Virus record (IMG/VR): IMGVR_UViG_3300037189_005067
Coordinates: 1 to 27,240 of that record
Direction: 5' to 3' (one strand)
DNA from: a virus
DNA: 27,240 nucleotides
In this document: one piece after another, positions 2,008 to 21,836 of the stretch
Layout of the letters: each line of letters starts with the position of its first letter
Position numbering within the stretch: the stretch's first letter is position 1
Program-made: the position numbers and the translations under genes
The notes under the pieces: generated by a model
The model's database searches: none
Seen by the model: the letters and a program-made list of their open reading frames with translations, nothing else
Told to the model about the DNA's origin: nothing

Positions 2008-3437
2008 TGCAATTCTTTTACGATGGTCAAATAAGACGATATATTGGTCAGGTAATTCGCATGTTAAGCGGATTTAAGTATCAAGCCGCAGACGGAACAC
2101 AACGTACTGTGCCAGTGATGTACGGAGATATGACCCGTCAAGTTGGCAGTATTATCAAAGAAAACTCAGAGAATAAATTATCTAGTGCTCCAAGGATAGC
2201 AGTTTATGTAACTGGCTTGGCCATGGATAAAACAAGACTAAGCGATGCAACTTTTGTCAGCAAAGTACATATTCGTGAACGTGAGTATAACGAAATCACT
2301 GGAGAATATACTGCTAAACAGGGCAACAATTATACTGTAGAACGCTTAATGCCTACGCCATATAAACTGACATTAAAAGCAGATATATGGACCACCAACA
2401 CTGACATGAAATTACAGATCATGGAACAGATATTGATGTTGTTTAATCCAAGTTTAGAAATACAGACCACAGATAATTTCATCGACTGGACTAGTTTAAG
2501 TGTTGTAGATTTAACTGATATAACTTTTAGCAGTCGTAGTGTTCCTGTAGGCGCTGAAACAGAAATCGACATTGGAACTTTAACTTTTGAAACACCAATC
2601 TGGATCAGTCCTCCTACTAAAGTTAAAAAATTAGGTGTAGTTACAGATGTACTAATGAACATATTCGATGCCACTGGCAAAGTCACTCCTGATTTTGTCA
2701 ACGGCAAACCAGTCGCTACAGAATATAATAATACCGGTGGCTTTGGTTTACTAGTTTATAATAATAAATTAAGTCTTCTTAAAGGACGAGAGCCTATTAT
2801 AGAAGATGATGCCGCCGACAGTGTGTTTACTAAAATAGGTGCAGACATCAGTTGGGATTATATTTTTGAACAATACCCAGGAAAATTCCGTACCGGAATC
2901 AGCCAAGTATTTTTAATTCAAGACAACGGCAATCAGATTGTAGGCACACTCAGCGAAGATCAAGATGACAGCACAATATTACATGTGAATTGGGATCAAG
3001 ATACATTTCCAACCAACACATTAATAGCCAACGATGCAAATACTGTATTGCGTGGCACTGTGGATGCTATTGTAGATCCAACAAGATTTAATCCTCGTCC
3101 AAGATTGCCTGGTGGTGCGTTAGACTGGCCTGATATTACCAGTGGTCCGATTAGATACATCATACTAGACAGCATTGGAGACGAAGTAAATGACGACGGC
3201 CCCGATGGCTGGAAAAATCAAGACGGCAGCGATTTTTATGCACAGGCAAACAGTATCATCGAGTGGGCGGGTACACACTGGGAAGTAGTTTTAGATCCTA
3301 ACGATCCTGCATTGGTTGATACACCTGTATACATTACTAATCTAAGAACTGGTATACAGTATAAATTCTTAGAGGGCGAATGGACTAAATCATTTGAAGG
3401 CGAGTATCCTAAAGGTACTTGGCGCATGATATTCTAA
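2007..3437 (+). CDS. Tail sheath stabiliser-like virion protein (T4 gp15-like, tentative)
   Basis: The product is 476 residues. Its first 220 or so (starting MQFFYDGQIRRYIGQVIRML, then VPVMYGDMTRQV, IIKENSENK, PTPYKLTLKADIWTTNTD, LFNPSLEIQT and WISPPTKVKKLGVV) match a conserved T4-like phage protein. That protein is annotated as the proximal tail sheath stabiliser or completion protein, which caps the contractile sheath at the neck. T4 gp15 is 272 residues; here about 230 extra C-terminal residues, rich in Asp and Gly, follow the conserved part. The start codon shares a base with the stop of the upstream baseplate gene, so the two are made together. No Shine-Dalgarno is evident, consistent with coupling. 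The family is fairly clear, but the gp15 assignment itself is by memory of annotated relatives. Confidence 0.7.
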   Translation: MQFFYDGQIRRYIGQVIRMLSGFKYQAADGTQRTVPVMYGDMTRQVGSIIKENSENKLSSAPRIAVYVTGLAMDKTRLSDATFVSKVHIREREYNEITGEYTAKQGNNYTVERLMPTPYKLTLKADIWTTNTDMKLQIMEQILMLFNPSLEIQTTDNFIDWTSLSVVDLTDITFSSRSVPVGAETEIDIGTLTFETPIWISPPTKVKKLGVVTDVLMNIFDATGKVTPDFVNGKPVATEYNNTGGFGLLVYNNKLSLLKGREPIIEDDAADSVFTKIGADISWDYIFEQYPGKFRTGISQVFLIQDNGNQIVGTLSEDQDDSTILHVNWDQDTFPTNTLIANDANTVLRGTVDAIVDPTRFNPRPRLPGGALDWPDITSGPIRYIILDSIGDEVNDDGPDGWKNQDGSDFYAQANSIIEWAGTHWEVVLDPNDPALVDTPVYITNLRTGIQYKFLEGEWTKSFEGEYPKGTWRMIF

Positions 3438-3450
3438 AATAAGTAAGTGC

Positions 3451-3885
3451 ATGAAAGAACAGATTGTCTGCTCTGGCGCACTATTTTATGCCAAAACTAC
3501 TCGAAGATTTTTACTGCTACAAAAAGCAGAAGGTAAACACGCAGGTACTTGGGGATTAGTCGGCGGCACCAACGTTGAAGGCGAAAGTGCTTGGCAAGGA
3601 CTTCAAAGAGAAATTGAAGAAGAAATTGGCAGTGTTCCCAGCATCATTAAAACTATTCCCATAGAGACATTTGTCAGCAACGACAGCGTGTTTAATTTCC
3701 ACACTTATCTCTGCGTAATTGAAAACGAGTTTATTCCTGTATTAAGCAAAGAACACAACGGGTGGGCATGGGCTACAGTAGACAGTGCTCCTAAACCCCT
3801 ACACCAAGGACTGCGTAGTAGTTTTAGTAATAAAATATTACGTACAAAACTTCAAACAGTTTTTGATATAGTAGATTTAATTTGA
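3451..3885 (+). CDS. Nudix hydrolase (MutT/NudE-like)
   Basis: The product is 144 residues, the size of a single Nudix domain. A complete Nudix box (G-x5-E-x7-R-E-U-x-E-E-x-G-U) runs from the Gly of VGGTNVEGES (about residue 37) to REIEEEIGSV (about residue 58), including the metal-binding REIEEE core. These enzymes hydrolyse a nucleoside diphosphate linked to another moiety, for example damaged nucleotides, ADP-ribose or nucleotide sugars; T4 encodes one such enzyme, NudE. The exact substrate is not visible. It follows the virion gene pair by 13 bases in the same direction, with only a weak ribosome site. Its 3' end overlaps the convergent oxygenase gene by 9 bases. Confidence 0.92.
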   Translation: MKEQIVCSGALFYAKTTRRFLLLQKAEGKHAGTWGLVGGTNVEGESAWQGLQREIEEEIGSVPSIIKTIPIETFVSNDSVFNFHTYLCVIENEFIPVLSKEHNGWAWATVDSAPKPLHQGLRSSFSNKILRTKLQTVFDIVDLI

Positions 3886-4494
3886 TAATCTCCACTGATT
3901 ATAAACTTGACTAACAGCCTGTGGTGGGCCGTGTTCTGTATTAAAACTAACAACCACCCGTCTAGTACTACAATTAGCATCAGTGCTGTGCTCTAGCCAA
4001 CTAGGAAATAATATTAACTGTCCTTCCTTGCACTCAACTATGTGATGATTTTCATTTAATTCATTAGATCCTAAAATCATTTCAGCCATTCTACACTGTG
4101 CCACGGGACTGTGAAATTTTAAACCTACAGACCTTTCGGGTGCTTCCACATATAATGCTCCTGAAATTACACTAAGTTCATGCCTATGAGGTTTCACTGC
4201 GTGTCCAGTTTCCATGATATTGAACCAACTGTTGGTTATCTGCACTGGCGCCATTTGTAAATCTAGTGCCATGTCTTTTACCAAACTTTCTATTTTGGCT
4301 CTAAGCCTCCTCACACTAAAATGACTTAAAATTGGAGTCATTGGAGTATTATAAGAACTGCCAGCATCACTAACTAGGCCGTGTGGTCGCAAATTTTTTT
4401 CACTTTGTTTTACCAAATCTTTAAGATTTTGCCACTCGGGCTCAGTGGATAAATCGTGAATATCTATACGTACTGGAAAAATTAATTTCTGCAT
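3877..4494 (-). CDS. 2OG-Fe(II) oxygenase-like protein (PF13759/TIGR02466 type)
   Basis: This 205-residue protein has the double-stranded beta-helix signature of the phage 2OG-Fe(II) oxygenase group. It contains SWFN near residue 89, the iron-site motif PHRHELSVISGALYV (H103, H105), then GQLILFPSWLEHS (distal H169) and RRVVVSFN (R178 or R179 for the 2-oxoglutarate carboxylate). The first ligand pair is HxH rather than HxD, as usual for this subfamily. I chose the ATG at 4494 because MQKLIFPVRI matches the family N-terminus (a short FP-x-x-(I/V) strand). The longer frame from 4569 would start inside the ribosome site of the divergent co-chaperonin gene. It is the only oxygenase on the minus strand, facing the Nudix gene and back to back with the large operon. 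Its substrate is unknown. Confidence 0.85.
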   Translation of the reverse strand: MQKLIFPVRIDIHDLSTEPEWQNLKDLVKQSEKNLRPHGLVSDAGSSYNTPMTPILSHFSVRRLRAKIESLVKDMALDLQMAPVQITNSWFNIMETGHAVKPHRHELSVISGALYVEAPERSVGLKFHSPVAQCRMAEMILGSNELNENHHIVECKEGQLILFPSWLEHSTDANCSTRRVVVSFNTEHGPPQAVSQVYNQWRLSN

Positions 4495-4501
4495 TTGGTG
4501 A

Positions 4502-4509
4502 TATTTAGT
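4502..4509 (-). promoter_or_regulatory. Possible weak late promoter box (ACTAAATA) for the minus-strand oxygenase
   Basis: The minus strand reads ACTAAATA, keeping the TAAATA core of the T4 late box with two mismatches. It ends 7 bases before the ATG at 4494, the same spacing as the box before the gene at 403. No Shine-Dalgarno lies between. The evidence is weak on its own. Confidence 0.3.
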
Positions 4510-4542
4510 ACTCTGTTTTGCTGTAAACAGCGGTTGTGACTC

Positions 4543-4550
4543 TATAAATA
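4543..4550 (+). promoter_or_regulatory. T4-type late promoter -10 box (TATAAATA) heading the oxygenase operon
   Basis: TATAAATA is an exact match to the T4 late promoter consensus. It lies 21 bases before the ATG of the co-chaperonin gene, with a strong GAAAGGAGA Shine-Dalgarno (4558-4566) in between. It is the best promoter candidate for the whole plus-strand unit that ends at the terminator near 17340. Confidence 0.75.
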
Positions 4551-4571
4551 TTCTACAGAAAGGAGACATCG

Positions 4572-4886
4572 ATGTTACTAAAACCAGTACATGATAGATT
4601 AATTGTTAAACGAGACGACCCTGAAAAAGTCAGCAAAGGGGGAATTGTTATACCTGATCAAGCTCAAGAACGTGCAACTCGCGGCACAATTCTAGCCTCG
4701 GGTCCAGGAAAATATGCTGAAAAAACCGGCGTGTTCATCCCTACAACCCTACAACCAGGCACAAAAGTTTTATTTCATCCTTATGCTGGCAGTGAAATGA
4801 AGGTAGGTGAAGAAATATTCTACAATATGCCAGAAGGCGATATTTGGGCTATCATAGAAGAAGATGAAGAACCAACTGCTGTCTAA
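4572..4886 (+). CDS. groES: GroES-like co-chaperonin
   Basis: The product is 104 residues, close to the 97 of bacterial GroES. It opens LKPVHDRLIVKRD, followed by a mobile-loop-like SKGGIVIPDQAQE that would contact GroEL. It ends with a GTKVLFHPYAGSEMKVGEE roof/strand region and a DIWAIIEE C-terminus, matching DILAIVE of bacterial GroES. The role would be capping the host GroEL chamber so phage proteins fold, as T4 gp31 does for the capsid protein. It is clearly GroES-type in sequence rather than gp31-type. It has the clearest promoter and ribosome site in the window and heads the oxygenase operon. Its last 23 bases overlap the next gene. Confidence 0.93.
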   Translation: MLLKPVHDRLIVKRDDPEKVSKGGIVIPDQAQERATRGTILASGPGKYAEKTGVFIPTTLQPGTKVLFHPYAGSEMKVGEEIFYNMPEGDIWAIIEEDEEPTAV

Positions 4887-5421
4887 AGATTATATTATAC
4901 ACCAGATTGATTTTGTTAAAAATAATCAACAGTTATATTCGAATCAATGTATAGAATTACATAAGGCATTGATTCGAATAAATGGGAATATCGATACAAC
5001 TAAATCGTATTGGAAATATAATATTTTTAATGTTAGTTGTAGCAGTTTAGCGTTCTACAGGCTATGGAAGGAACTTAATTTAAAAATAAGAGAATATGTT
5101 GGAGACGATCGTCCATTATGGATGTCTGGGTGGTTAAATTTTCATAAGAGTGATCAAGTTTTAGATTGGCACAATCATAAATTATCTATTTGTCACGGTT
5201 ATGTTAGTATTGATCCAAAAAATACTGTAACAGAATTTGAAAATTATAAAATTACAAATTTGCCTGGGCAGTTGTATCTTGGTCCTAGTGAAAGAATGCA
5301 TCGTGTTTTAGTTTTAGAACCATATTCTGATTATAGGATTACTATAGGATTCGATGTAAGCGATAAGCAAAACGAAGATCATATTAATTCTAATTTTCAT
5401 TCTTTTATACCGGTATTTTAA
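4864..5421 (+). CDS. Divergent 2OG-Fe(II) oxygenase-like protein
   Basis: The product is 185 residues. The C-terminal half has the oxygenase layout: MSGWLNF (about 87-93), DWHNHKLSICHGYV with H103 and H105, GQLYLGPSERMH with distal H146, and YRITIGFDV with R158. The N-terminal half is Asn/Lys-rich and matches nothing I recognise. The first metal pair is HxH. The ATG overlaps the end of the co-chaperonin gene by 23 bases, and the ribosome site is only a weak GAAGAAG, so coupled translation is likely. Base composition becomes strikingly A+T-rich from here. It is assigned as a member of the same superfamily as its neighbours, with moderate certainty that it is active. Confidence 0.75.
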   Translation: MKNQLLSKDYIIHQIDFVKNNQQLYSNQCIELHKALIRINGNIDTTKSYWKYNIFNVSCSSLAFYRLWKELNLKIREYVGDDRPLWMSGWLNFHKSDQVLDWHNHKLSICHGYVSIDPKNTVTEFENYKITNLPGQLYLGPSERMHRVLVLEPYSDYRITIGFDVSDKQNEDHINSNFHSFIPVF

Positions 5422-5422
5422 T

Positions 5423-5911
5423 ATGTTTAAATTTTTAGAAGATCAAGATTTTATTAACAGTAGACAAAATAATAAACATTTTGTTTTTAGAAATCTTGAT
5501 CTAACTACTCCTACCTGGAGTGAAATATTAGAGAATTTAAACCAAACGATTGTTTCTAAATCAAAAATAAAAATTTTAGAGAATCTTGGATTTGTATTTT
5601 TTAATGCAGAAAGAATGTTGTCTGTAAACAGTTTATTAACTGAAATTAAAAAACTTACAGATAGGCCCTGTACAGCACATTGTTATATTTCTTTGTTAGA
5701 AGTATCGCATACATTTGGTAGACATAACGATACATCGGATGTATTTTTTTGGCAAGTACAGGGTCGCACACTATGGAAAGTTGAACAAGGCACAACAACC
5801 TATGAGTATGAATTATTTCCTAATGATTTAATTTATATTCCTAGATTTATATTTCATGATGTAGTACCGCTTGAGCCAAGGGCGGGTATATCTATAGGAA
5901 TTGATTACTAA
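5423..5911 (+). CDS. Mini cupin / JmjC-like oxygenase (Cupin_4 type)
   Basis: The 162-residue product has a cupin core near its C-terminus. FGRHNDTSDVFFWQVQGRTLW (about 98-118) supplies H101 and D103 of an HxD metal site. It is followed by the tight FPNDLIYIPRFIFHDV turn with H145. This arrangement, with FxxQVxGRxxW after the HxD, resembles the Cupin_4 (ROXA/YcfD) ribosomal-protein hydroxylases, which are 2OG-Fe(II) enzymes. It is far smaller than YcfD (about 370 residues) and lacks their C-terminal domains, so only the catalytic barrel is kept. It starts 1 base after the previous stop, with no good Shine-Dalgarno. Hydroxylation of a protein side chain is plausible but inferred. A non-enzymatic metal cupin is the main alternative. 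Confidence 0.75.
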   Translation: MFKFLEDQDFINSRQNNKHFVFRNLDLTTPTWSEILENLNQTIVSKSKIKILENLGFVFFNAERMLSVNSLLTEIKKLTDRPCTAHCYISLLEVSHTFGRHNDTSDVFFWQVQGRTLWKVEQGTTTYEYELFPNDLIYIPRFIFHDVVPLEPRAGISIGIDY

Positions 5912-5912
5912 G

Positions 5913-6503
5913 ATGTTAGAAAATATTAAAGATTATATTTTTGTAAAGAATGTTATACCAAAAGATGTCTGCGAATCTATGGTTAAAGATGTTGCCACAC
6001 GAGCACCGTGGACTAAACATCAATGGCAAAATTACGGGATCGTTAAGGATAGAAAAACAAGTTTTCCGTCTACAGAATTAGACATAGCAGAATCAACTCC
6101 AGAACAAAATAATATACTATACCCATATATGGGCGAAGTATTAAAGGCATATGAAGAACGAATAAAAGAAAATAACAGTTTTGATAGTTTTGTTTCTAAC
6201 TGCGGATTGCATATTGCTTGTCCGGTAAGATTTAATAGATACACAGTGCATACGCAGATGTTAGCACATCATGATCACATACACAGTCTCTTTGACGGTG
6301 AACGTAAAGGAATACCAATTTTATCTATTGTTGGATTACTGAATGATGATTACGAAAAGGGCGGATTTTTCTTTTTTGACGATTACGAAGTAAAGTTATC
6401 TGCTGGAGATATTCTAGTATTTCCTTCTGTGTTTATGTATCCGCATCGCGTTGAAAAAGTATCTAAAGGTACACGATATAGTTTTGTAAGTTGGGCATGG
6501 TAA
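5913..6503 (+). CDS. 2OG-Fe(II) oxygenase, prolyl-4-hydroxylase-like (copy 1 of a tandem pair)
   Basis: This 196-residue protein has the canonical HxD...H...R set: LAHHDHIH (H119, D121), YPHRVEKV (H178) and GTRYSFVSW (R188, 2-oxoglutarate binding). A GGFFFFDD strand lies after the iron site and a GDILVFPS turn before the distal His. This is the classical prolyl-4-hydroxylase layout. The ATG at 5913 is preferred over the TTG at 5901 because MLENIKDYIFVKNVIP aligns with MDKLIDFVRIENAIP of the next gene. It follows the previous stop by 1 base. The next gene is a clear paralogue, so this is a tandem duplication. The protein or peptide substrate is not evident. Confidence 0.92.
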   Translation: MLENIKDYIFVKNVIPKDVCESMVKDVATRAPWTKHQWQNYGIVKDRKTSFPSTELDIAESTPEQNNILYPYMGEVLKAYEERIKENNSFDSFVSNCGLHIACPVRFNRYTVHTQMLAHHDHIHSLFDGERKGIPILSIVGLLNDDYEKGGFFFFDDYEVKLSAGDILVFPSVFMYPHRVEKVSKGTRYSFVSWAW

Positions 6504-7087
6504 TGGATAAGTTAATAGATTTTGTTCGTATTGAAAATGCAATACCTGAAGAATTTTGTGATGAGATTGTAAAAGAAATCTCAAATAATCCTCACTGGGG
6601 TACACATTCCTATCATCCAGGTTTTAATAGACCCACCGTAACACATTTTCCTCCTACAGAATTTGAATTTCTCGATGCAGAAGAACAGTTAAGTTTAAAA
6701 TTAATGCCGTATGTAGAACGTGTTATGAGATCCTACAACACATTCATTAATCAAAATAATAGTTTTGAAGGGTATGATTCTGAAACTGGGGTTACTACCT
6801 GCACTCCTATACGGTTTAATCGCTGTCGAATTCACACACTTGTTGAAGCACACCACGACCATATACACGAATTATTTGGAAAAGGAAACAAAAGTATACC
6901 TTCAGTTTCAGTAGTTGGACTGCTTAATGATTCATTTACTGGTGGCGAATTTGTTATGTTTAAAGACACTGATATGAAATTGAAGAAGGGCGATATTATT
7001 GTATTTCCTTCTAACTATCTGTACCCGCATCGTGTTGAAAAAGTTAAAAGCGGAGTTAGAGTAAGTTTTGTTACTTGGGCGTTTTAA
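6503..7087 (+). CDS. 2OG-Fe(II) oxygenase, prolyl-4-hydroxylase-like (copy 2)
   Basis: This 194-residue paralogue of the preceding gene shares the (L/V)xAHHDHIHxLF iron-site motif (H117, D119), a GLLND segment, the GGEFVMFKD strand, the GD-I-x-VFPS turn, YPHRVEKV (H176) and the terminal SFV(S/T)WA(W/F) (R186 just before). Sequence drift is greatest in the N-terminal third, suggesting different substrates on a shared catalytic core. Its ATG shares a base with the upstream stop (TAATG), so translation is coupled. An in-frame ATG at 6497 is possible but lies inside the upstream gene and does not extend homology. The catalytic set is complete, so activity is likely. Confidence 0.92.
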   Translation: MDKLIDFVRIENAIPEEFCDEIVKEISNNPHWGTHSYHPGFNRPTVTHFPPTEFEFLDAEEQLSLKLMPYVERVMRSYNTFINQNNSFEGYDSETGVTTCTPIRFNRCRIHTLVEAHHDHIHELFGKGNKSIPSVSVVGLLNDSFTGGEFVMFKDTDMKLKKGDIIVFPSNYLYPHRVEKVKSGVRVSFVTWAF

Positions 7088-7767
7088 TGACCGATGATTT
7101 TAAAAACATGGTTTTTTCTAAGGATAATTTTTTTATAAATCCTGATAAAATTCTCACGCTGTTTGATCGAGAACAGTTTTTTCAGTCAGCCGCATATCCA
7201 GGACAGCGTACAGGCAATTTATTAGAATCTAATAAAGACATTTCAAGAAATTTTGGTTTGTTTTGTTCTAAAAAAATATGCGATGAAATATTTCCAGGAA
7301 TTCACGGACTTATGATTGACATCAGATTGCATATCAACACCGTGTACCATGACAGTGAACTTAATCAAGGATGGATTCATGCAGACGATGCTGATCTGGC
7401 TGGATTAATATATCTGTCAAAGAACGAAGATTGTTTAGATACTGGCACTTCAATTTTTAATAAAAAAATAAAAGAAAACTTTTCATCGAGGGATATTACA
7501 TCTCGTCAAGAGTTTAATGTCACTGGTGTTGCAACTGATGAATATAAAAAAGATTTGTATGAAAATCATAGTATGTTTTCTGAAACAATACGTATAGGCA
7601 ATGTTTACAATCGATTAGTGGCCTATGATGCTACATTATTTCATCGACCGAATCGTTATAACTTAGATTCTTTAGAATTGAGAAGGAGTATTGTATTTTT
7701 TATCAAAGGTTTCAAAAGAACATACGAATCAAAAATTAATATTATGTCGTCTTGGGAGGATGTATGA
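7087..7767 (+). CDS. DUF6445-like 2OG-Fe(II) oxygenase-fold protein
   Basis: The product is 226 residues. WIHADDADLAGLIYLS (H98, D100) supplies an HxD pair. YNRLVAYDATLFHRPNRY carries the distal H186, and ELRRSIVFFIKGF gives the Arg (199 or 200). The YDAxxFHxPNRY pattern resembles the uncharacterised family I know as DUF6445, related to the 2OG oxygenases; the family name is from memory. The ATG shares a base with the previous stop (TAATG), and the TTG at 7075 is rejected for that reason. Unlike its neighbours it has a long insert (about 115-165) between the HxD strand and the distal His. Function is unknown; hydroxylation is inferred from the intact metal triad. Confidence 0.82.
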   Translation: MTDDFKNMVFSKDNFFINPDKILTLFDREQFFQSAAYPGQRTGNLLESNKDISRNFGLFCSKKICDEIFPGIHGLMIDIRLHINTVYHDSELNQGWIHADDADLAGLIYLSKNEDCLDTGTSIFNKKIKENFSSRDITSRQEFNVTGVATDEYKKDLYENHSMFSETIRIGNVYNRLVAYDATLFHRPNRYNLDSLELRRSIVFFIKGFKRTYESKINIMSSWEDV

Positions 7768-8393
7768 TTTATAAAACTCCGTTATTTGAAGTACCAATGT
7801 ATAAAATGAAAGCATCTAGACATGCTGAGATTAAACAATGGATGCTGGACAATGTGTTTACTGAATATGAAAAACATGGCCCTAATGAGTCGTCTAGAAA
7901 TCTTTATAGCAGTTACTTTCCCGGTGCTCCTAAATTAGATAACAAGACATTTTCTAATTTTTATACCAAAGATATTAACAATTTTATAGATAAGGCAGGT
8001 TTTTCAAAATTACATAAGTGGGAAACACGTTTGAACTTTTGGTATAATTTAACGTTTAAGGGATCCTATCAGGAAGTTCACGACCACTTAGGAGGTCCTA
8101 TACCAATTTCCTATGCGGCAATTCATTATGTTGTCTTTGACAAAGCAGAACACATTTCAACAGTATTCTATAATCCGTTAGAATCTATTTTAAAAACATT
8201 ACAACCAACTACAAAGGATCAGTTTAGACCTACCGATTATCAAGGTTTACAAAAAATATTTAATGTTGAGGAAGGAGATTTAATAATATTTCCGTCTTAT
8301 GTACCGCACTCTGTGATGACGCAAGTTAGCGAAAACCCCAGACTTACTGTAGCATTTAATCTCAGCATTTACGAAAAGGAAGCATATGAGTAA
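7764..8393 (+). CDS. 2OG-Fe(II) oxygenase-like protein (HDH type, copy 1 of a tandem pair)
   Basis: This 209-residue protein begins MIYKTPLFEVPMYKMKA, the short N-terminal strand usual for the phage oxygenase group. WYNLTFKG (93-100) precedes VHDHLGGPIPISYAAIHYV (H106, H108). VEEGDLIIFPSYVPHSV holds the distal H182, and NPRLTVAFN has R193. The start codon overlaps the previous stop (ATGA) with a strong GGGAGGA ribosome site at 7754-7760. The next gene is a paralogue with the same HGPN, HDH-x-GGP and VEEGDLI-x-FPS motifs. The Gly-Gly-Pro after the iron pair sets this couple apart from the other oxygenases in the operon. Confidence 0.87.
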   Translation: MIYKTPLFEVPMYKMKASRHAEIKQWMLDNVFTEYEKHGPNESSRNLYSSYFPGAPKLDNKTFSNFYTKDINNFIDKAGFSKLHKWETRLNFWYNLTFKGSYQEVHDHLGGPIPISYAAIHYVVFDKAEHISTVFYNPLESILKTLQPTTKDQFRPTDYQGLQKIFNVEEGDLIIFPSYVPHSVMTQVSENPRLTVAFNLSIYEKEAYE

Positions 8394-9030
8394 TGTATCT
8401 ACAATACCTTTATTTCCTGTAAACATTTACAAAATAAAAGTAACTAATCACGAAAAAATTAAAAAGTATCTTATGGATAATGTGCATCCTTATTTTGAAA
8501 AACACGGACCCAACGATCCAGTACAAAATACATTAACAGACTACGGGTTTATGCACGATGCGGCATTCTGTCATTGGCCGTATCTTATTGATTGGTATAA
8601 GCCAGATATCCATTCTATATTAGAAACAATTGGTTTCAATTTTAAACGCCATCCTTGGAAAATAAAAATGAAAGGATGGTATAATTTTTCTACCAGCAAT
8701 ACTGCGGCATTTGTACACGATCACGCCGGAGGACCTAGTACAATACAATTTTCTGCTGTACATTATGTAAAGTTAGGAGAAGGCGCTAAACCAACTGTGT
8801 TTAATAATCCATGGAGCAAACTGTTAAAAGCAACTACTCCTACTAAAAACTTTGATTTTCTCCCGCCTTATTTCTGTGATTTTTCTCGAATGCCCGAAGT
8901 AGAAGAAGGAGATTTAATATTATTTCCTAGTTGGCTCGATCACTTTGCTCCTCATTTTACTTCAGGATCGTTGCGTGTTACCACTGCTCTCAATATTATG
9001 ATGCGTGTAGATGATGGAGACGGAAATTAA
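8386..9030 (+). CDS. 2OG-Fe(II) oxygenase-like protein (HDH type, copy 2)
   Basis: This 214-residue paralogue of the upstream gene shares (L/M)DNV, FEKHGPN, GWYNF, VHDHAGGP (H111, H113), (I/V)HYV, VEEGDLILFPSWLDH (H186) and LRVTTALN (R197). The overlap with the previous gene is 8 bases, and AAAAGGA provides a ribosome site. The region between the iron pair and the distal His (about 130-170) is the most diverged part relative to copy 1. In this fold that region covers the active-site mouth, so the two copies may act on different substrates (inference). Confidence 0.87.
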   Translation: MSNVSTIPLFPVNIYKIKVTNHEKIKKYLMDNVHPYFEKHGPNDPVQNTLTDYGFMHDAAFCHWPYLIDWYKPDIHSILETIGFNFKRHPWKIKMKGWYNFSTSNTAAFVHDHAGGPSTIQFSAVHYVKLGEGAKPTVFNNPWSKLLKATTPTKNFDFLPPYFCDFSRMPEVEEGDLILFPSWLDHFAPHFTSGSLRVTTALNIMMRVDDGDGN

Positions 9031-9031
9031 A

Positions 9032-9694
9032 ATGAAATTCAGTGAATTAGCCAATGTTGGCATGGTGCTCGAAGACTTGAATCCGTTTTTAGTTAAGCGT
9101 ATTCAAAAAGTTACACAAACATTTAAAGATATGTTTAAAGAAAATAGTTCTCCTGATATGTTATATCAGTTTCATAGAAGAATAGACGGGTACGATCTAG
9201 ATTATTTAATACCCGAAGATTTAAAAAAAGATATTGAAAACGAAGCACTTAAATTAATAATTGCACACGAGCATACATATCAATATTTTAATAGAATGTA
9301 TAATTTTATAACATCAATTCCACCAAAAGAAGTTCAGTTTGAATTAGAACGTATGTGGGTTAATATTCAACGCAAGGGAGAATTTCTACCTATACACGAA
9401 CATTCAGGCATCTATAGTTTTGTTTTATGGACTGATGTTCCGTTTAACATAGCAGACGAAGGGTTATATAGTCCTAATCCTACTACAGAAAAAAACAGAG
9501 CAGGACATTTTCAATTTTTATACATAGATATTCTTGGAAAAATCAGCACATTAAACCTACCAGTGGACAAAACATGGGAAGGAAAAATGTGCATCTTTCC
9601 ATCTGCTATGAATCATCAAGTTTATCCATTTTATAGTTCTAATGGTATTAGAATTTCTATATCTGGGAATTTTAGGGTGCGTATAGGTGATTAA
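9032..9694 (+). CDS. 2OG-Fe(II) oxygenase-like protein (MWVN...HEH type)
   Basis: The product is 220 residues. ERMWVNIQRKGEFLPIHEHSG (H122, H124) is followed by SFVLWTDVPF, an NRAGHFQFLYIDILGK strand pair, a GKMCIFPSAMNHQVYPFY turn (H195) and GIRISISGNF (R207). This pattern, with VYPFYS after the distal His, is a known marine-phage oxygenase subgroup. A second member with the same landmarks lies 5 kb away at 14400. I place the start at 9032, one base after the previous stop and behind GGAGACGGAAA; in-frame ATGs at 9011 and 9014 are alternatives. The N-terminal 90 residues are charged and probably helical. Confidence 0.87.
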   Translation: MKFSELANVGMVLEDLNPFLVKRIQKVTQTFKDMFKENSSPDMLYQFHRRIDGYDLDYLIPEDLKKDIENEALKLIIAHEHTYQYFNRMYNFITSIPPKEVQFELERMWVNIQRKGEFLPIHEHSGIYSFVLWTDVPFNIADEGLYSPNPTTEKNRAGHFQFLYIDILGKISTLNLPVDKTWEGKMCIFPSAMNHQVYPFYSSNGIRISISGNFRVRIGD

Positions 9695-10295
9695 TTTTAA
9701 ACCGTTATCTCGAACTCTTGCTGATAAAAATTTAGTCTATGAATTTTTAGACCCGCTACCTACATGGGCTGTAAAATCAGGAGAACTATATTTTAAAAAG
9801 TTTGCATTTGAATACGGTCATCATGCGGCATCATTAGACGACGGAGAACCATATTTTGGAAAAATGCTGTTGCTTAGAGAAGCAAATCTTGATTTATCTG
9901 TACCTTACTTAATACAAAATCTCTGCGACTGCATTCAACTATCACTGTTACCACAAATTGATCCTAATGGAAAATTTGTAGAATTACAGAGAATTGCCGT
10001 CAATGGTCAAACTTCAACACAGAACCCTGCACCTCATATTGATACCGATACAGATTCCAGTTTATGGACTGCGGTATATTACGTTAATAACAGTTCGGGC
10101 GATACTGTATTTTATCGCTCTATTCTTAATCAAGAAGAAATATACAGAAGTACATTTCAGCAAGGAAAAATAGTAATATTTCCTGCAAGTTTTTGCCACA
10201 GAGCAGTTGCGCCTCTAAGTGGCTGGCGAATATCAGTAGGCATCACTTTTGAATGGCATACTGATTTATCTAAACAATGTCGGATGGATGTATGA
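9687..10295 (+). CDS. 2OG-Fe(II) oxygenase (HxD type)
   Basis: The product is 202 residues. The site is canonical: APHIDTDTDSSLWTAVYYV (H117, D119), GDTVFYRS, GKIVIFPASFCHRAV (H171) and GWRISVGITF (R181). It starts at a GTG with an AGGGTG ribosome site upstream and overlaps the previous gene by 8 bases; the next in-frame Met is past residue 60, so GTG is the only sensible start. It has no close paralogue in the window and is more like cellular HxD oxygenases than the HxH genes around it, so it may have joined the cluster separately. Confidence 0.88.
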   Translation: MINFKPLSRTLADKNLVYEFLDPLPTWAVKSGELYFKKFAFEYGHHAASLDDGEPYFGKMLLLREANLDLSVPYLIQNLCDCIQLSLLPQIDPNGKFVELQRIAVNGQTSTQNPAPHIDTDTDSSLWTAVYYVNNSSGDTVFYRSILNQEEIYRSTFQQGKIVIFPASFCHRAVAPLSGWRISVGITFEWHTDLSKQCRMDV

Positions 10296-10909
10296 TTAAT
10301 ACGTTTGCATGGAAAACTAATTCTAATGTAATAGAACATACCAGTGTTTTACAAATAAAAAATGCTGTTAGTTCACAATCAAGAGAACAGTTAATAAAAG
10401 AAATTTTAGATTATAAAAGTGTAACTGTTGATAACTCTGGCAGTGAAAAAAATTGCTGGCGTGGACGACCTGAATTGCCAAAAGAATACATTAATGATTT
10501 AATTCTTACTGCTGTGAATGCTTATATTAATTCATTGCCCAATTCTGCTATGCTGTCAAGAAATGAAAATCCTTCAGATAGATTTGATTATGATAAACCG
10601 TTAATTCATTATTGGGTCAACGTAAATGCAAAAGACGGATACAATGTATCGCACAATCATGCAGGATCTGTAATAAGCGGAGTTATATATCTACAGGCTA
10701 GCCAAACCGGAATAATAGAATTTCAGCCGTTAAATTACATATATAAAATTAACCATCCTTGCTGGTTTTATAACGGCAGTATGCAGTATCATCCCGAAGA
10801 CGGTGATATAATTATATTTCCGTCTTATCTATTGCACAGCGTAGAGCCAAATCCAATAGATAAAGAAAGAATTAATATTGCTTTTAACATAAATTACACA
10901 CCTAAATGA
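10292..10909 (+). CDS. 2OG-Fe(II) oxygenase-like protein (PF13759/TIGR02466 type)
   Basis: This 205-residue protein has HYWVNVNAKDGYN (about 106-118), then SHNHAGSVISGVIYL (H121, H123), the strand GIIEFQP, GDIIIFPSYLLHSV (H182) and ERINIAFN (R193). HNHxGSxxSGVxYL is the hallmark of the TIGR02466 group. The ATG at 10292 overlaps the previous stop (ATGA) behind a GGATGGAT ribosome site, and is preferred to the upstream in-frame ATG at 10277. It is the last oxygenase before the block of four DUF6065-like genes. Confidence 0.9.
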   Translation: MINTFAWKTNSNVIEHTSVLQIKNAVSSQSREQLIKEILDYKSVTVDNSGSEKNCWRGRPELPKEYINDLILTAVNAYINSLPNSAMLSRNENPSDRFDYDKPLIHYWVNVNAKDGYNVSHNHAGSVISGVIYLQASQTGIIEFQPLNYIYKINHPCWFYNGSMQYHPEDGDIIIFPSYLLHSVEPNPIDKERINIAFNINYTPK

Positions 10910-11616
10910 ATATAGAATTTTTCTGCGAAGATAGTCATGTTTCAGAATATTGGCCACCAGTGCCTGCCAAGGATTGTATACCCGAAGAGTATGCTAATCT
11001 TCCTGCGGGTAAAGAAAAATATCAAATAAAAGAAGAACCTATTCATAACATAAAGGGCTGTTTGCCTGCTATGGATTTTATGTCCGCCGGTTATATTATT
11101 TTTAATTCTTATGAATTAGAGTTAGATACAAAATTTAAACAATTTAGAGAAGATCTAAATTTAAAAACAGCAAGAACCATCACAGAGTCCGAACATGAAT
11201 CAAATATTCATGCTAGAAAAGCTCTTGCAATATATTATGAAAATGCCTGCCCTGTAATTAATGAGCAAAAAAAGCAACGAGTATATTTTAAAGTTAAGAC
11301 ATCTTGGGCGGTACGAACACCGCCTGGTTATAGTTGTTTGGTAATGCAACCTTTTTACTTAAATGAAAAAAGATTTACAATTATGCCTGCTATAATAGAT
11401 ACAGACACGTATCATTTACCAATACCTATCACTGGCTATTTAAACATAAAAGAAAATACTAGAATACGACCAGGCACGCCTTTAGTACAGATAATTCCAT
11501 TTAAAAGAGACGACTGGAATATGTCTATATCCGACAAGATTCCTAGCGACAAATCAAAATTCTTTATTTGGAATTCCTATAAACGATTATTCCATTCAAT
11601 TAAAAAGTATATATGA
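10906..11616 (+). CDS. DUF6065-like protein, copy 1
   Basis: The product is 236 residues. Landmarks are YWPPVPAKDCIPEEYANLP (15-33), IKGCLPAMDFMSAGYII (49-65), SWAVRTPPGYSCLVMQPF (133-150), IIDTD (163-167) and a GTPLVQIIPFKRDDW turn (190-204). This series matches an uncharacterised phage and bacterial family I know as DUF6065; the name is from memory. Cys52 and the TPPGYS loop are shared with the next gene. There is no iron triad, so it is not one of the oxygenases. The conserved Trp and Pro loops suggest a beta-rich binding fold, possibly a substrate- or partner-binding subunit (inference). The start overlaps the previous stop (ATGA). Confidence 0.75.
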   Translation: MNIEFFCEDSHVSEYWPPVPAKDCIPEEYANLPAGKEKYQIKEEPIHNIKGCLPAMDFMSAGYIIFNSYELELDTKFKQFREDLNLKTARTITESEHESNIHARKALAIYYENACPVINEQKKQRVYFKVKTSWAVRTPPGYSCLVMQPFYLNEKRFTIMPAIIDTDTYHLPIPITGYLNIKENTRIRPGTPLVQIIPFKRDDWNMSISDKIPSDKSKFFIWNSYKRLFHSIKKYI

Positions 11617-12320
11617 CCAAAGAAATTAATATTAAATTTACCTGCGAGGACGAGGATACGGCTAAATTGTTTCCTCCCGTTCCGGCGGCTAAATTAATTC
11701 CCGAGTGGTATAAAAACATTCCTGTAACTGCATCAAGGGCAGAAGGATATATCGATGGCGATCAAGTTCCTACTATAAAAAGATGTATGCCGGTGTTAGA
11801 TTATCTAACTTCAGGGTACATTCTAAGAAACTCCTACGAAATAAATGCGTGGCCTGCAAATAAGGACGGTATAAAGAGTTTTAATCTTGAGTGTAATAAG
11901 AAAAATTATGTAGGAGCACATCCGTGGCATCAGGCTACAACTGAAATTAACGGTGTTAAAAACCATTATTTTAAAATTAATCAAGAATGGCATATTAAAA
12001 CTCCGCCTGGATATAGTTGCTTAATTTATCAACCTCATTATTTGTTTAGAAAAGAATTTCAAATGTTTCCCGCTATAGTTGACACCGACAAGCATGACGA
12101 CTTTACTGGGTTAGTAGGGATTATCAACAGCGAAACTGATTTTACTATTGCTCCTGGAGATCCGCTGGTAACTATTTTTCCGTTTAAACGAGAAGAATGG
12201 AAAATGGACGTAGAGTATGATAAAAATATTGGATCTAACAGTAGTTTTAAATATTTTTTACACGGTGTTTGGCATGGGTTTTACTCCAAAATGTTACACA
12301 CCAAGAAGACGTATCGATAA
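11613..12320 (+). CDS. DUF6065-like protein, copy 2
   Basis: This 235-residue paralogue of the preceding gene keeps FPPVPAAKLIPEWYKNIP (20-37), TIKRCMPVLDYLTSGYI (54-70), WHIKTPPGYSCLIYQPHY (126-143), IVDTDK (155-160) and GDPLVTIFPFKREEW (182-196). It is coupled to the preceding gene by an ATGA overlap. The C-terminus is basic and aromatic. The shared CxP...SGYI and TPPGYSCL loops are the strongest candidates for a functional surface. No known catalytic motif, signal peptide or membrane segment is seen. It is followed by one of the few gaps in the operon (23 bases). Confidence 0.75.
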   Translation: MTKEINIKFTCEDEDTAKLFPPVPAAKLIPEWYKNIPVTASRAEGYIDGDQVPTIKRCMPVLDYLTSGYILRNSYEINAWPANKDGIKSFNLECNKKNYVGAHPWHQATTEINGVKNHYFKINQEWHIKTPPGYSCLIYQPHYLFRKEFQMFPAIVDTDKHDDFTGLVGIINSETDFTIAPGDPLVTIFPFKREEWKMDVEYDKNIGSNSSFKYFLHGVWHGFYSKMLHTKKTYR

Positions 12321-12343
12321 CGGCTAGTGTAGGTATATAGTAT

Positions 12344-13072
12344 ATGTTTACATTTTTCTTTAAGAAGTCCACGGTTCATATAGATATCTTTACTTTCTAT
12401 CCTGGTATTATTGAACTGTTCCCGATTAGGGAAGCCGACGATGTAATGCCATCGTGGTTTAAAGCAGTGCCAACTAGCACCAAATCTCCGTCGGGCTCCT
12501 CAGTGGCAACAGTACGCACTTGTCCGGGCATGGTAGAATTATTTAAAGAAGGTCTAATTATTCCGTCCTGGTGCGATTTATACCTAGACTGGAGTAGGGG
12601 ATCTTTATATCATGAGCCCGACGAAATGGGCAAACAACATCCTGATTGGCAGTGGAATAAGAGTCCTGCTTTCAAAGATTTTCATCATTTAAAAATTGGA
12701 AGTCCGTGGAAATTTAAAGAAAAAACAGGTTCTAAATTTATGATGACTAACACTTGGTGGAATAAACCTGGGGTTAAACATTTTGTGCCTAATGGTTTAA
12801 TAGAATTTAAATATCAGCACTCGTCTAATGTTAATTTATGGCTTCCTAAAGCAGGGTTCCCGCAAAATTATACAATAACTGCGGGTGATCCTTTATGTCA
12901 AATTATTAATATAGACGGAAAGAAAATAAAATTTCATATGCATTACACTGATAAGAACGAAATAGATCATGATGTAAACGATTTACTTTTTTCCCAAGTA
13001 GGGCAATACTATAAACGAAAAAAATTAATAGAAGAAAACTGTCCAAACTGGACTCCGGATACAAAAAAATAA
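12344..13072 (+). CDS. DUF6065-related protein, copy 3 (diverged subtype)
   Basis: The product is 242 residues. It follows the same order of landmarks as the two genes upstream in altered form: FPIREADDVMPSWFKAVP (26-43), TVRTCPGMVELFKEGLIIP, SPWKFKEKTGSKFMMTNTWW in place of the TPPGYS loop, FKYQHSSNVNLWLPK, and AGDPLCQII. The CPGM Cys corresponds to the Cys of copies 1 and 2. I therefore place it in the same superfamily as a separate subtype, shared with the next gene. A 23-base spacer precedes it with only a weak AGG, and no clear promoter is visible. The C-terminal 40 residues are Lys-rich. Confidence 0.65.
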   Translation: MFTFFFKKSTVHIDIFTFYPGIIELFPIREADDVMPSWFKAVPTSTKSPSGSSVATVRTCPGMVELFKEGLIIPSWCDLYLDWSRGSLYHEPDEMGKQHPDWQWNKSPAFKDFHHLKIGSPWKFKEKTGSKFMMTNTWWNKPGVKHFVPNGLIEFKYQHSSNVNLWLPKAGFPQNYTITAGDPLCQIINIDGKKIKFHMHYTDKNEIDHDVNDLLFSQVGQYYKRKKLIEENCPNWTPDTKK

Positions 13073-13073
13073 T

Positions 13074-13766
13074 ATGTTTACAATTTTTAGACGACCATCA
13101 AAAATTTACGTTGACTGTTTTACAGATTTAGAAGAACTTCCAAAGTTTTTTCCTATTCAACACGCTTCTGAACGACTGCCTACATATTGGAAAAATCTGC
13201 CAACTACTGTGCCTTATATGGGTCCTCATCGAGGAACTATGAAGACATGTCCAGGAGTAAGTAGTTTATATAGAACAGGATTTATAATTCAAAATTGGCA
13301 CGACATATGGCTTAGTGTTGACAATAATAACCTTTCCTGGCAACCTCAACCGGCCGCAGAATCACACGATCCAGGACAATGGGGCGATGCATTTAAAAAT
13401 CATTATCATTTAAAAATGGTCAGTCCATGGCGCATTAAAGAAAAAACCGGTGTTAAATTTATGTTTACTAACACACTTTGGCACGATGAAGATTTTAAAC
13501 CTAAAGTGGTAAATGGTATAGTAGAATACAAATATCAGCACACAAGTAGTGTTAATATGCTTATTCCTAAAAATATGTTTCCTAAATCTCAACTAATACC
13601 TGCAGGTAAAGAACTGGTACATGTTGTACCGTTATCCGATAAAGATGTAGTAATTAAGATGCACGTAGTTGATGCAACAGAATTAAAAAAATTACAAAAT
13701 TGGGTTTTTACATTTAACGGTCATTATTTTAAACGTAAAAAACTATTACAAGATCGTGGAGAATAA
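13074..13766 (+). CDS. DUF6065-related protein, copy 4 (diverged subtype)
   Basis: This 230-residue paralogue of copy 3 starts MFTIFRRPSKIYVDCFTD, against MFTFFFKKSTVHIDIFTF in copy 3. It then keeps FFPIQHASERLPTYWKNLP, TMKTCPGVSSLYRTGFII, HYHLKMVSPWRIKEKTGVKFM, VEYKYQHTSSVNMLIPK and a final GHYFKRKKLL, matching GQYYKRKKLI in copy 3. Even the DNA of the first five codons is near-identical (ATGTTTACA-xTTTT), a sign of tandem duplication. It begins 1 base after the preceding stop. It has no recognised enzyme motif. Confidence 0.65.
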   Translation: MFTIFRRPSKIYVDCFTDLEELPKFFPIQHASERLPTYWKNLPTTVPYMGPHRGTMKTCPGVSSLYRTGFIIQNWHDIWLSVDNNNLSWQPQPAAESHDPGQWGDAFKNHYHLKMVSPWRIKEKTGVKFMFTNTLWHDEDFKPKVVNGIVEYKYQHTSSVNMLIPKNMFPKSQLIPAGKELVHVVPLSDKDVVIKMHVVDATELKKLQNWVFTFNGHYFKRKKLLQDRGE

Positions 13767-13767
13767 C

Positions 13768-14403
13768 TTGCAGGAATTTACAAAATTATTATCGTCTGGT
13801 GCGGCTGTTACAGGAATTTTTCCAAATCCAGTTTATAAAAAAAATATAGGAAGGCCGCTGACCGAGTTAGAATTAAAAGCATCCTTGCCTGAATCATACA
13901 ATTTAAGACCTGGCAGTGATAATCTGCGAGCAGACAGTACAAAAATTCTAACTAATCCAGCATTTTTTGGAATTAAAAATTTTATTGACAGTTGTTTAAA
14001 AGATTTTTTAAAAGAAATTGTTTCACCTTCTACTGATTTTAATCTATATGTTACACAGAGTTGGATTAATTTTAACAGAGAGGGCGATAAACATCATCAA
14101 CATTTTCATGCTAACAGTATTGTCAGCGGTGTCTTTTATCTAAACACCAGTGAAAATGATATGATATCATTTTATATTCCCCAACGCAGTCAGATTCATA
14201 TTATGAATACTCCTAATTGGTGGAACATGCGTAAGATTGGAGTGCCTGTGCGTCCTGGAGATTGTGTTTTGTTTATGAGTGATTTAGAACACGGCGTTGA
14301 AAGACAGGGCATACCCGATCACACTCGTGTAAGTCTTGCATTTAATACATGGTTCAAAGGCGAGATCGGCAGCGAAGAAGGTCTGACACATCTAAAGCAA
14401 TGA
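13768..14403 (+). CDS. 2OG-Fe(II) oxygenase-like protein (PF13759/TIGR02466 type)
   Basis: About 211 residues from a TTG start at 13768, which follows the previous stop by 1 base and has GGAG 6-7 bases upstream. A GTG at 13756 in the same frame is the alternative but lacks a ribosome site. Numbered from the TTG, the motifs are VTGIFPNPVYKKN near the N-terminus, SWINFNREGDKHHQHFHANS with the H112xH114 pair, SGVFYLN, GDCVLFMSDLEHGV (H175) and TRVSLAFNTWF (R187). The His-rich run HHQHFH makes the exact ligand pair slightly uncertain; alignment of SGVxYL favours the last two His. The gene overlaps the next by 4 bases (ATGA). Confidence 0.87.
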   Translation: MQEFTKLLSSGAAVTGIFPNPVYKKNIGRPLTELELKASLPESYNLRPGSDNLRADSTKILTNPAFFGIKNFIDSCLKDFLKEIVSPSTDFNLYVTQSWINFNREGDKHHQHFHANSIVSGVFYLNTSENDMISFYIPQRSQIHIMNTPNWWNMRKIGVPVRPGDCVLFMSDLEHGVERQGIPDHTRVSLAFNTWFKGEIGSEEGLTHLKQ

Positions 14404-15047
14404 ATATTTCCAGTTTAGAAACTATTGATTTACCTAACATAGGTGTTATACGCGGTAAATTAAGCGATGATGCCTTGCAGGTATTAAAAGAAGAAATTAA
14501 TAAAATTCAACAAGACTTTTCTAAAGCAAAACCTTGGAACAAAGATCTTGCAGGGCATATTAGAAAAGAATTTTTGTTACAGGACAGCGTAAAAATTCTA
14601 GAACCAATGCTAATTAATATGGCTCTTGAACATAACGAAAAGTACAAATACGTTGATCCCACATTTGATGTTGAGCTAGGAAAAAAATATAGATTTGCTA
14701 TGGAAACTATGTGGGTCAATTTTCAGCAAAAGCACGAATTTAATCCGTTACATAGACATACAGGAATTTATAGTTTTGTTATATGGGTTGAAATTCCTTA
14801 TTTTTTAAATTTTGAAAAAGAGATCGGTCCGGGTAAAAACGCCAATGTTAATCGAGCAGGTATGTTTGAATTCACCTACACAGATATCTTAGGAAATCTA
14901 AGAGGTGAATCAATTGGTGTAGATAAATCCTATGAAGGTTGTATTATTATGTTTCCTGCAAGACTGCATCATATGGTGCATCCTTTTTACAGTACTGAAA
15001 ATTACAGGATCTCCGTTGCTGGAAATATAAAAGTTATTACAGAATAA
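14400..15047 (+). CDS. 2OG-Fe(II) oxygenase-like protein (MWVN...HRH type)
   Basis: This 215-residue protein is a clear paralogue of the gene at 9032. It shares MWVNxQxKxEFxPxHxH (H118, H120), TGIYSFVIW, an NRAGMFEFTYTDILGN strand pair, VDKSYEG, IIMFPARLHHMVHPFYS (distal His at 191 by alignment) and YRISVAGN (R203). The start at 14400 forms an ATGA overlap with the previous stop; the longer frame from 14349 only adds an Arg-rich shadow of the upstream gene. The two copies are separated by four other-type oxygenase or DUF genes and more, so this pair is dispersed rather than adjacent, unlike most pairs in the operon. Confidence 0.87.
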   Translation: MNISSLETIDLPNIGVIRGKLSDDALQVLKEEINKIQQDFSKAKPWNKDLAGHIRKEFLLQDSVKILEPMLINMALEHNEKYKYVDPTFDVELGKKYRFAMETMWVNFQQKHEFNPLHRHTGIYSFVIWVEIPYFLNFEKEIGPGKNANVNRAGMFEFTYTDILGNLRGESIGVDKSYEGCIIMFPARLHHMVHPFYSTENYRISVAGNIKVITE

Positions 15048-15048
15048 T

Positions 15049-15684
15049 ATGACTATTCATGCTATTTTTCCTACGCCCATATACGAACACGTCGGCACCG
15101 TAGAAGAAACATTTTTAGTACAACACGAAATTAAAAATTTTCTTCCTAAAATCACTACAACAGATGAATTCAATAATCCGCCAGGATGGGACGACGGTGT
15201 AAAAACAAATATCAAACTCAGATATAATACTATTGTAGATTTTCAAATGAAAAATCTAGAAAATTATATTGAGTCTCATGTTAAAAAATATATTCAATCT
15301 GTTGGAGCATGGGAACCTATGCCAAATAAACTAGCACATAGTTGGATTAATTTTGTTGAAACAGGTGCTAGGCAAGATTGGCATCAGCATCAAGATGCTG
15401 TTATTGCAGGAACTTATTATTACCAAACATCCGAAGATGACGGAGACATAGTATTTAGAACTCCAAATCAATTTGTAGAATTGGAATTATTTCCATTAGG
15501 ATCTACTGTAGATAAGTTTTATAATATAAAACCTAAAGTTGGAAAAATAGTGCTTTTTCCAGGATGGCTTGCACACTCTGTAAGAAAAAACACACAGGAT
15601 AATACTAGAATATCCATATCGTTTAATTATATGAGAGATAACTTTGCAGCCAGAACTGAAACGAATCATAAAAACAACAAGTAA
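15049..15684 (+). CDS. 2OG-Fe(II) oxygenase-like protein (PF13759/TIGR02466 type)
   Basis: This 211-residue protein opens MTIHAIFPTPIYEHV, the standard N-terminal strand of the TIGR02466 group. It then has SWINFVETGARQDWHQHQD (H112, H114), AGTYYYQT, GDIVFRTP, GKIVLFPGWLAHSV (H176) and TRISISFNY (R187). The iron pair is HxH. It starts 1 base after the previous stop with no clear Shine-Dalgarno. The C-terminal tail is Asn/Lys-rich and likely disordered. It is the last oxygenase of the array and the immediate neighbour of the halogenase. Confidence 0.9.
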   Translation: MTIHAIFPTPIYEHVGTVEETFLVQHEIKNFLPKITTTDEFNNPPGWDDGVKTNIKLRYNTIVDFQMKNLENYIESHVKKYIQSVGAWEPMPNKLAHSWINFVETGARQDWHQHQDAVIAGTYYYQTSEDDGDIVFRTPNQFVELELFPLGSTVDKFYNIKPKVGKIVLFPGWLAHSVRKNTQDNTRISISFNYMRDNFAARTETNHKNNK

Positions 15685-17988: not shown

Positions 17989-17996
17989 TATTTATC
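17989..17996 (-). promoter_or_regulatory. Putative late promoter -10 box (GATAAATA) overlapping a stop codon
   Basis: GATAAATA on the minus strand is identical to both boxes of the 375-395 inverted repeat. It begins inside the final Gly-stop (GGATAA) of the fibre gene upstream and lies 23 bases before the ATG at 17965, with an AAGAGAGAA ribosome site between. Confidence 0.6.
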
Positions 17997-18951: not shown

Positions 18952-18956
18952 TTAAA

Positions 18957-19898: not shown

Positions 19899-19902
19899 TA
19901 TA

Positions 19903-20859: not shown

Positions 20860-21471
20860 TTAAATTGTGAAGATTCTCCAACCTCTAGTTGCGTCATAGT
20901 AAACTATTTCCAATGCCGCTCCCTGTGTTGTAATTTGTAAATCTCCTGCCTGACCCATTATTGGTTGACCGTTTCTTAATAATTGACATTGATTTGTATT
21001 AAATGTATTTGCAATATCATAAATTCGAATTGTGTCGCCTTTGGCAGGTGCCGCTGGCAACGTTATATTGATTGATGCAGATGTTGTATTAACCCACAAT
21101 GCCTGGCTTGCGGCAGCGGTGTATGTTGTAGTAACATCAACGTTAACATATCCACCAGCAACTGCGCCAGATAAAATATAATTTGTTCCGTCTGATGTTA
21201 AAAACGCCACTGTTTGATTTTGTAAAACAAAAGTCGAAGCAACGTTAGCACTGGGACCTTTAATAGTTCCGCTTGGTGTGCTAAGTGTAACTACTCCACC
21301 TGTGTTGTTATAGAACCCTTGTTGAGAACCGTTGGCCGCGGCAGGCGTAGCCAAAGTTACAGTATAGGGTGCAGTTCCTGTTAAAGTTGTAAACAGTCCT
21401 TGTGCGGGTGATGATAGGACAGCCGCACCGCTTTGAGTTGTAACTGACGCTACTGTGTTATATCGTGCCAT
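20860..21471 (-). CDS. Phage structural / fibre protein
   Basis: This 203-residue protein of low complexity is rich in Thr, Ala and Gly and has two beta-rich halves. The first has GTAPYTVTLATPAAANGSQQ and GTNYILSG. The second has LWVNTTSASINITLPAAPAKG, TIRIYDIANTFNTNQ, RNGQPIMG and a terminal YYDATRGWRIFTI. The LPAAPxxGDxIRIxDxANTF and GWRIFxI segments recur in T4-like marine phage virion proteins near tail fibres. It lacks cysteine-rich, catalytic or membrane segments. A ribosome site (TAAGGA) lies 11 bases before the ATG, slightly far, with an out-of-frame ATG six codons long in between. The precise place in the virion is unknown. Confidence 0.8.
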   Translation of the reverse strand: MARYNTVASVTTQSGAAVLSSPAQGLFTTLTGTAPYTVTLATPAAANGSQQGFYNNTGGVVTLSTPSGTIKGPSANVASTFVLQNQTVAFLTSDGTNYILSGAVAGGYVNVDVTTTYTAAASQALWVNTTSASINITLPAAPAKGDTIRIYDIANTFNTNQCQLLRNGQPIMGQAGDLQITTQGAALEIVYYDATRGWRIFTI

Positions 21472-21818: not shown

Positions 21819-21836
21819 GTTATAATTTCTCCATTT

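Follow-up and report, generated by a model that had tools for sequence, protein, structure and literature searches.

A compact block of predicted oxygenase genes beside the tail-fibre genes of a putative T4-related jumbo phage: a possible virion-modification module

Phages are known to carry high numbers of genes for 2-oxoglutarate (2OG)-dependent oxygenases, which are usually taken to be auxiliary metabolic genes acting in host nitrogen metabolism or DNA repair. What, then, might an aquatic bacterial virus do with 14 predicted oxygenases packed into a single block? The question is raised by positions 1 to 27,240 of IMG/VR virus record IMGVR_UViG_3300037189_005067 (the whole 27,240-nt stretch is termed the window herein). 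The answer that we tentatively favour, at somewhat less than an even chance, is that the block is a late-expressed module modifying virion proteins, most likely tail fibres, of a jumbo phage related to T4. Neither such a compact late array, nor its companion proteins of the family phrog_7084, nor the recurring linkage of these genes to tail genes was found described in the literature searched.

Gene content and late-type promoter of the block

Between 4572 and 17324 all genes lie on the plus strand and overlap or abut, with intergenic gaps of at most 23 nt in the list of open reading frames (ORFs). Together with an oxygenase gene just upstream on the other strand, the block comprises 14 oxygenases, one halogenase, four phrog_7084 proteins, and a co-chaperonin, and tail-fibre genes adjoin it. 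A first-pass annotation of the sequence had placed an oxygenase array at 3877-15684. The oxygenases are there, with all 14 ORFs recovered at the same coordinates in an ORF check (possible upstream alternative starts for some are at 9011, 10277, 13756, and 14349), but 10906-13766 is occupied by the four phrog_7084 genes and the block extends to the end of the halogenase gene at 17324. Because of the tight spacing there is no room inside the block for the precursor of a ribosomally synthesized and post-translationally modified peptide, a candidate that was rejected.

Twelve of the 14 oxygenases passed the curated Pfam cut-off in profile searches. Eight of these matched PF13759 and carry an HxH motif: 3877..4569 (minus strand, E 4e-22) and, on the plus strand like all that follow, 7764..8393, 8386..9030 (which resembles 7764 in build), 9032..9694 (also phrog_81), 10292..10909, 13768..14403, 14400..15047, and 15049..15684 (E 6e-22). 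Solved relatives of the last, 2RG4 and 3BVC, also have HxH and were deposited as uncharacterised proteins with no function assigned. The remaining four have HxD and matched PF13640 (5913..6503 and 6503..7087, of the same family), the JmjC_2 family PF08007 (5423..5911), and DUF6445, PF20043 (7087..7767). Below the cut-off were 4864..5421 (PF13759, 18.3 bits; phrog_2696) and 9687..10295 (PF13640, 19.8 bits; phrog_274 and, at E=4e-6, phrog_81); the motif is present in both, as HxH and HxD, respectively, and both matched PHROG families linked to 2OG oxygenases. Overall, HxD is found in five proteins (5423, 5913, 6503, 7087, and 9687) and HxH in the other nine. H-x-[D/H], a distal His, and a later Arg, the residues expected to bind metal and 2OG, were invariant in orthologue alignments of 13 subfamilies, and in 4864, with too few orthologues for an invariance test, the motif and C-terminal Arg were read by eye, which bears out the residue pattern first proposed for these genes.

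The product of 7087 was chosen for modelling because DUF6445 was the least secure assignment. Its AlphaFold2 model (mean predicted local distance difference test score of 74, nine sequences in the alignment) is a prolyl-hydroxylase-type jelly roll with HxD...H...R, closest to PHD2 and a bacterial prolyl-4-hydroxylase (Z 12.9); the double-stranded beta-helix is thus a prediction for this protein, and the fold of the other oxygenases is taken from their families. The PHROG labels on 7087-7767 (phrog_1644, "minor coat protein") and 9687-10295 (phrog_274, "DNA endonuclease V") sit on proteins that are 2OG-type by fold or motif, and these labels have passed into RefSeq cyanophage records, for example syn9 gp51-gp53. 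Relatives of phrog_2954 ("ferrochelatase") near such cassettes (L089:5955-6491, plus strand) have an HKD...H pattern and look like a further oxygenase family.

The last gene of the block (15708..17324, plus strand) encodes a flavin-dependent halogenase (Pfam Trp_halogenase, 363 bits versus a cut-off of 21), in which the motifs GxGxxG and WxWxIP are present as GGGSAG and WIWNIP. The closest solved structure, VirX1 (6QGM), matched over its full length (residues 4-536, E 1e-112) at about 38% identity. The open active site of VirX1 accepts large phenolic substrates (PMC8407142), and such a site would allow a polypeptide substrate.

The four phrog_7084 paralogues, each called by a PHROG match, lie on the plus strand at 10906..11616, 11613..12320, 12344..13072, and 13074..13766. 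Two of them, 10906 and 11613, are weakly similar to DUF6065, of which no mention was found in the literature searched. The product of 11613, modelled with AlphaFold2, is predicted to fold like a dUTPase (Z 11.6, root-mean-square deviation 2.5 over 125 residues), a fold common to dUTPase, dCTP deaminase, and phrog_7084. Identity to those enzymes is about 14%, however, the sequence match to dUTPases was not significant (E 0.14), and the catalytic Asp of motif 3 is not kept throughout, being retained in 10906 and 11613 (VDTD/IDTD) and replaced by Glu in 12344 and 13074. Among haloarchaeal tailed viruses, which share phrog_7084, the gene adjoins ribonucleotide reductase in HF2 (L043), and the halovirus HF2 genome had no PF13759 or PF13640 match. 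A second phrog_7084 context (L106, L109, L110, L111, and L097) has a carbamoyltransferase before the gene, a carbon-nitrogen hydrolase after it, and few oxygenases.

The block opens with a GroES/gp31-like co-chaperonin gene (4572..4886, plus strand; phrog_3188). The element TATAAATA, which we take to be the T4 late -10 element, lies 22 nt upstream (4543..4550, plus strand). It occurs once in the window versus a chance expectation of 4.5, so that its position, not its number, is what counts. The related records G002, G003, G004, G005, and G007/G008 carry the element in the same position, and in G003 it also lies 5' of the probable tail-sheath start. Scans for sigma-70 promoters and terminators gave results near chance. 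A late-type promoter also precedes an uncharacterised gene of ~170-177 amino acids between the NUDIX gene and the 3877-type oxygenase gene in G003 (16786, minus strand), G004 (16603), and G005 (1796).

Relatives of the locus and recurrence beside tail genes

Upstream of the block, on the plus strand, are a neck gp14-like virion structural gene (403..2007, phrog_11591), a gp15-like tail sheath stabiliser gene (2007..3437), and a NUDIX hydrolase gene (3451..3885), which stands directly 3' of gp15 in jumbo relatives as well. Judged by its neck genes, the phage groups with T4-related jumbo phages. Its gp15 is closest to those of the jumbo phages PA5oct (and PA5oct-like), Atu_ph07, and Phosso (33-34% identity), not to those of marine cyanomyoviruses; a marine cyanomyovirus origin was rejected on this affinity. 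In the whole genomes of PA5oct-like phages, Atu_ph07, and Phosso, PF13759 was not matched at all and PF13640 once at most, and Paride keeps gp15-NUDIX and lacks the block. In a DNA similarity search against phage records, 3% of the block was covered, by Synechococcus phages at 68% identity.

The longer record G001 encodes proteins 100% identical to those of the window. Gene order is nearly unchanged in G002-G006, with 43-94% identity per gene, and in these records and the window the block contains only oxygenase, phrog_7084, halogenase, and, where it was called, co-chaperonin genes in the same order; 4864 and 14400 are missing from G002. About half of the block genes are kept in G007-G009, along with three to five halogenases. 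Every testable gene had a ratio of nonsynonymous to synonymous substitution rates (dN/dS) of 0.03-0.21, evidence of purifying selection that is carried by the closer G003/G004/G005 pairs, since dS was saturated in some window/G002 pairs.

Sampling by gp15 gave 39 contigs with at least 4 kb past that gene, and the slot after NUDIX held oxygenases in 17, halogenases in eight, and phrog_7084 in four. No oxygenase was found in the slot of 22 of the 39, and the highest count was seven, figures that are partly limited by contig ends. The number of oxygenases in the window, described as unusual in the first-pass annotation, is thus exceptional in its density, but not as a count per genome, as cyanophage S-SCSM1 has 24. 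Tandem halogenases (two or three) with few or no oxygenases occur at or near gp15-NUDIX in contigs L337, L339, L321, L318, and L316, and G009 has five halogenases within 19 kb.

Downstream, the block converges on minus-strand tail-fibre genes: three tandem fibre-like genes (17992..20850), a fibre-like gene with a phrog_31104 domain (20860..21471), and further fibre genes (21489..27203), one of them for a protein of 1788 amino acids. Domain phrog_31104 also adjoins such cassettes in unrelated phages. The tandem fibre-like proteins are ~43-44% identical to one another, and their C-terminal region contains His residues (e.g., GRHPHGMWMHG..NNH) that may serve as a substrate or bind a metal. A collagen-like (GXY) substrate was considered; it was rejected in the case of S-CREM1 ORF67, where the longest G-x-y run spans nine residues, and no long run was found in the relatives of the window.

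Similar arrays were observed at tail-fibre or neck loci of Syn9/Syn10, S-RIM44, S-CREM1, HTVC008M, Mosig, HTVC027P, and phage 023Pt. A Maricaulis bin contains two more, on phage-like contigs that each have ~8-10 oxygenases, one halogenase, and one phrog_7084. Among fibre-sampled pelagiphage-like loci with enough sequence, close relatives of one another, oxygenases and phrog_7084 stood beside a collar gene in 58 of 58. In loci sampled by phrog_7084 alone (n = 79), oxygenases crowd around this gene, with a density of 4.3 per 10 kb at distances up to 1.5 kb and of 1.1 beyond. Distant Caulobacterales relatives of phrog_7084, considered for hints to function from chromosomal operons, had no oxygenase in flanks of ~1.3-1.5 kb, which are too short to judge. 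A link between tail fibres and oxygenases was not found in the titles and abstracts searched, a search that subscription papers mostly fell outside.

Virion modification and its alternatives

Modification of virion proteins, probably fibres, is favoured because of the late promoter, the co-chaperonin, the fibre linkage in unrelated phages, and the protein-hydroxylase-like folds. Transcription from the T4-type late promoter would take in the co-chaperonin, 13 of the 14 oxygenases (3877 being the exception), the four dUTPase-fold proteins, and the VirX1-type halogenase. Most of the oxygenases would then probably hydroxylate side chains of virion proteins with Fe(II) and 2OG, the likeliest targets being the tail fibres encoded just beyond the block on the opposite strand, and the halogenase may place halogen on exposed aromatic residues. 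The phrog_7084 proteins could serve as non-hydrolytic partners or substrate-recognition subunits. Both stepwise hydroxylation of one target and a set of enzymes with different targets had been suggested for the array; gains and losses gene by gene between relatives fit enzymes that act separately, each on its own site or target, more readily than a single obligatory pathway, and nothing in this analysis points to the generation of diversity that was attached to the latter suggestion.

The same genes could instead tailor a small molecule, a host-derived or phage-made metabolite that is hydroxylated and halogenated as an antibiotic, signal, or protectant. Many free aromatics are halogenated by VirX1 (PMC8407142), a cluster in cyanophage S-SSM6a has been predicted to yield a halogenated metabolite or to decorate a polysaccharide (PMC7824862), and carbamoyltransferases stand beside phrog_7084 in some loci. 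Yet the late promoter and fibre linkage speak against such tailoring, as does the block itself, which has no scaffold-forming enzyme and in which no gene had a Pfam match to a carbamoyltransferase, methylase, or HAD phosphatase, and we consider it unlikely. Modification of the host envelope or its glycans, blocking superinfection or altering the receptor, was one option proposed for the S-SSM6a cluster (PMC7824862), and linkage to tail loci would suit functions related to the receptor as well; it appears quite improbable here, being of little use by the time a late operon acts and having no glycosyltransferase in the block.

Nucleotides, RNA, or ribosomes are similarly improbable targets. On this reading the dUTPase-fold proteins would handle nucleotides and the JmjC_2 protein would work in the manner of a ribosomal oxygenase. 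Such targets are suggested by the dUTPase fold of phrog_7084, the JmjC_2 match of 5423, and the neighbouring ribonucleotide reductase in HF2, but motif-3 Asp is exchanged for Glu in two of the four paralogues, the match to dUTPases falls short of significance, and a base-modifying partner is absent from the block. That the slot merely collects unrelated auxiliary genes, which would influence the metabolism of the host (by consuming 2OG, for instance), would account for its highly variable content among gp15-sampled loci and agrees with the 2OG and nitrogen effects proposed by Sullivan et al. (PMC3037559). The restriction of the block to the same gene kinds in the same order in the window and G002-G006, and the recurrence of the same families across unrelated phages, make such an insertion hot spot decidedly unlikely.

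Several observations weigh against virion-protein modification itself. Insertions are known to gather at tail loci, the g15-g18 region of cyanomyoviruses among them (PMC2984593), and many of the 2OG genes of S-SCSM1 sit among replication genes rather than at tail loci. The 58 pelagiphage-like loci do not amount to 58 independent events, because they are 84-98% identical. No TATAAATA was detected at the start of the block in G006 or G009, and the function is dispensable, given the 22 gp15-sampled relatives with no oxygenase in the slot. Because nine of the 14 oxygenases have HxH instead of the canonical HxD, dependence on 2OG is uncertain, and it is by inference that we arrive at activity, 2OG chemistry, a protein substrate and its modification, the tail fibre as target, and the part played by phrog_7084.

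A broader claim, that a tail-linked module of oxygenases, a dUTPase-fold partner, and often a halogenase post-translationally hydroxylates and halogenates receptor-binding proteins in many unrelated aquatic phage families, with the window as the largest compact example found, is possible though on balance doubtful. The position of the late promoter, the recurrent tail linkage, and the recurrent dUTPase-fold companion nevertheless point to one late module instead of auxiliary metabolic genes. If this is true, VirX1, which is used as a biocatalyst, would gain a candidate class of natural substrates, and since culturable phages carry such modules, mass spectrometry of virions could test the reading.

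Comparison with known systems

T4-like aquatic phages with any PF13759 match (n = 12) have 4-14 such matches per genome, partly dispersed. S-SCSM1, with its 24 2OG genes (PMC9602691), resembles the window in its high count and its overlapping PF13759 and PF13640 families, but the genes are spread through its genome, and phrog_7084 was searched for there and not found. The ten-gene halogenase/2OG/cupin cluster of S-SSM6a likewise combines a halogenase with several hydroxylating enzymes, and differs in having carbamoyltransferases, a HemK-like methylase, and HAD phosphatases (PMC7824862). Closer in layout is gp40-gp54 of Syn9/Syn10, the region that contains VirX1, where two halogenases, phrog_7084 (gp43), and ~ten 2OG-type genes directly follow the tail-fibre genes; these phages are Kyanoviridae, with one phrog_7084 versus four here and fewer oxygenases. 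In S-CREM1, a cyanophage with ten 2OG genes (PMC9964418), ORF68-80 combine a halogenase, phrog_7084, and seven to eight 2OG genes, half the oxygenases of the window block, with a Gly/His-rich fibre-like neighbour and TATAAATA at the head.

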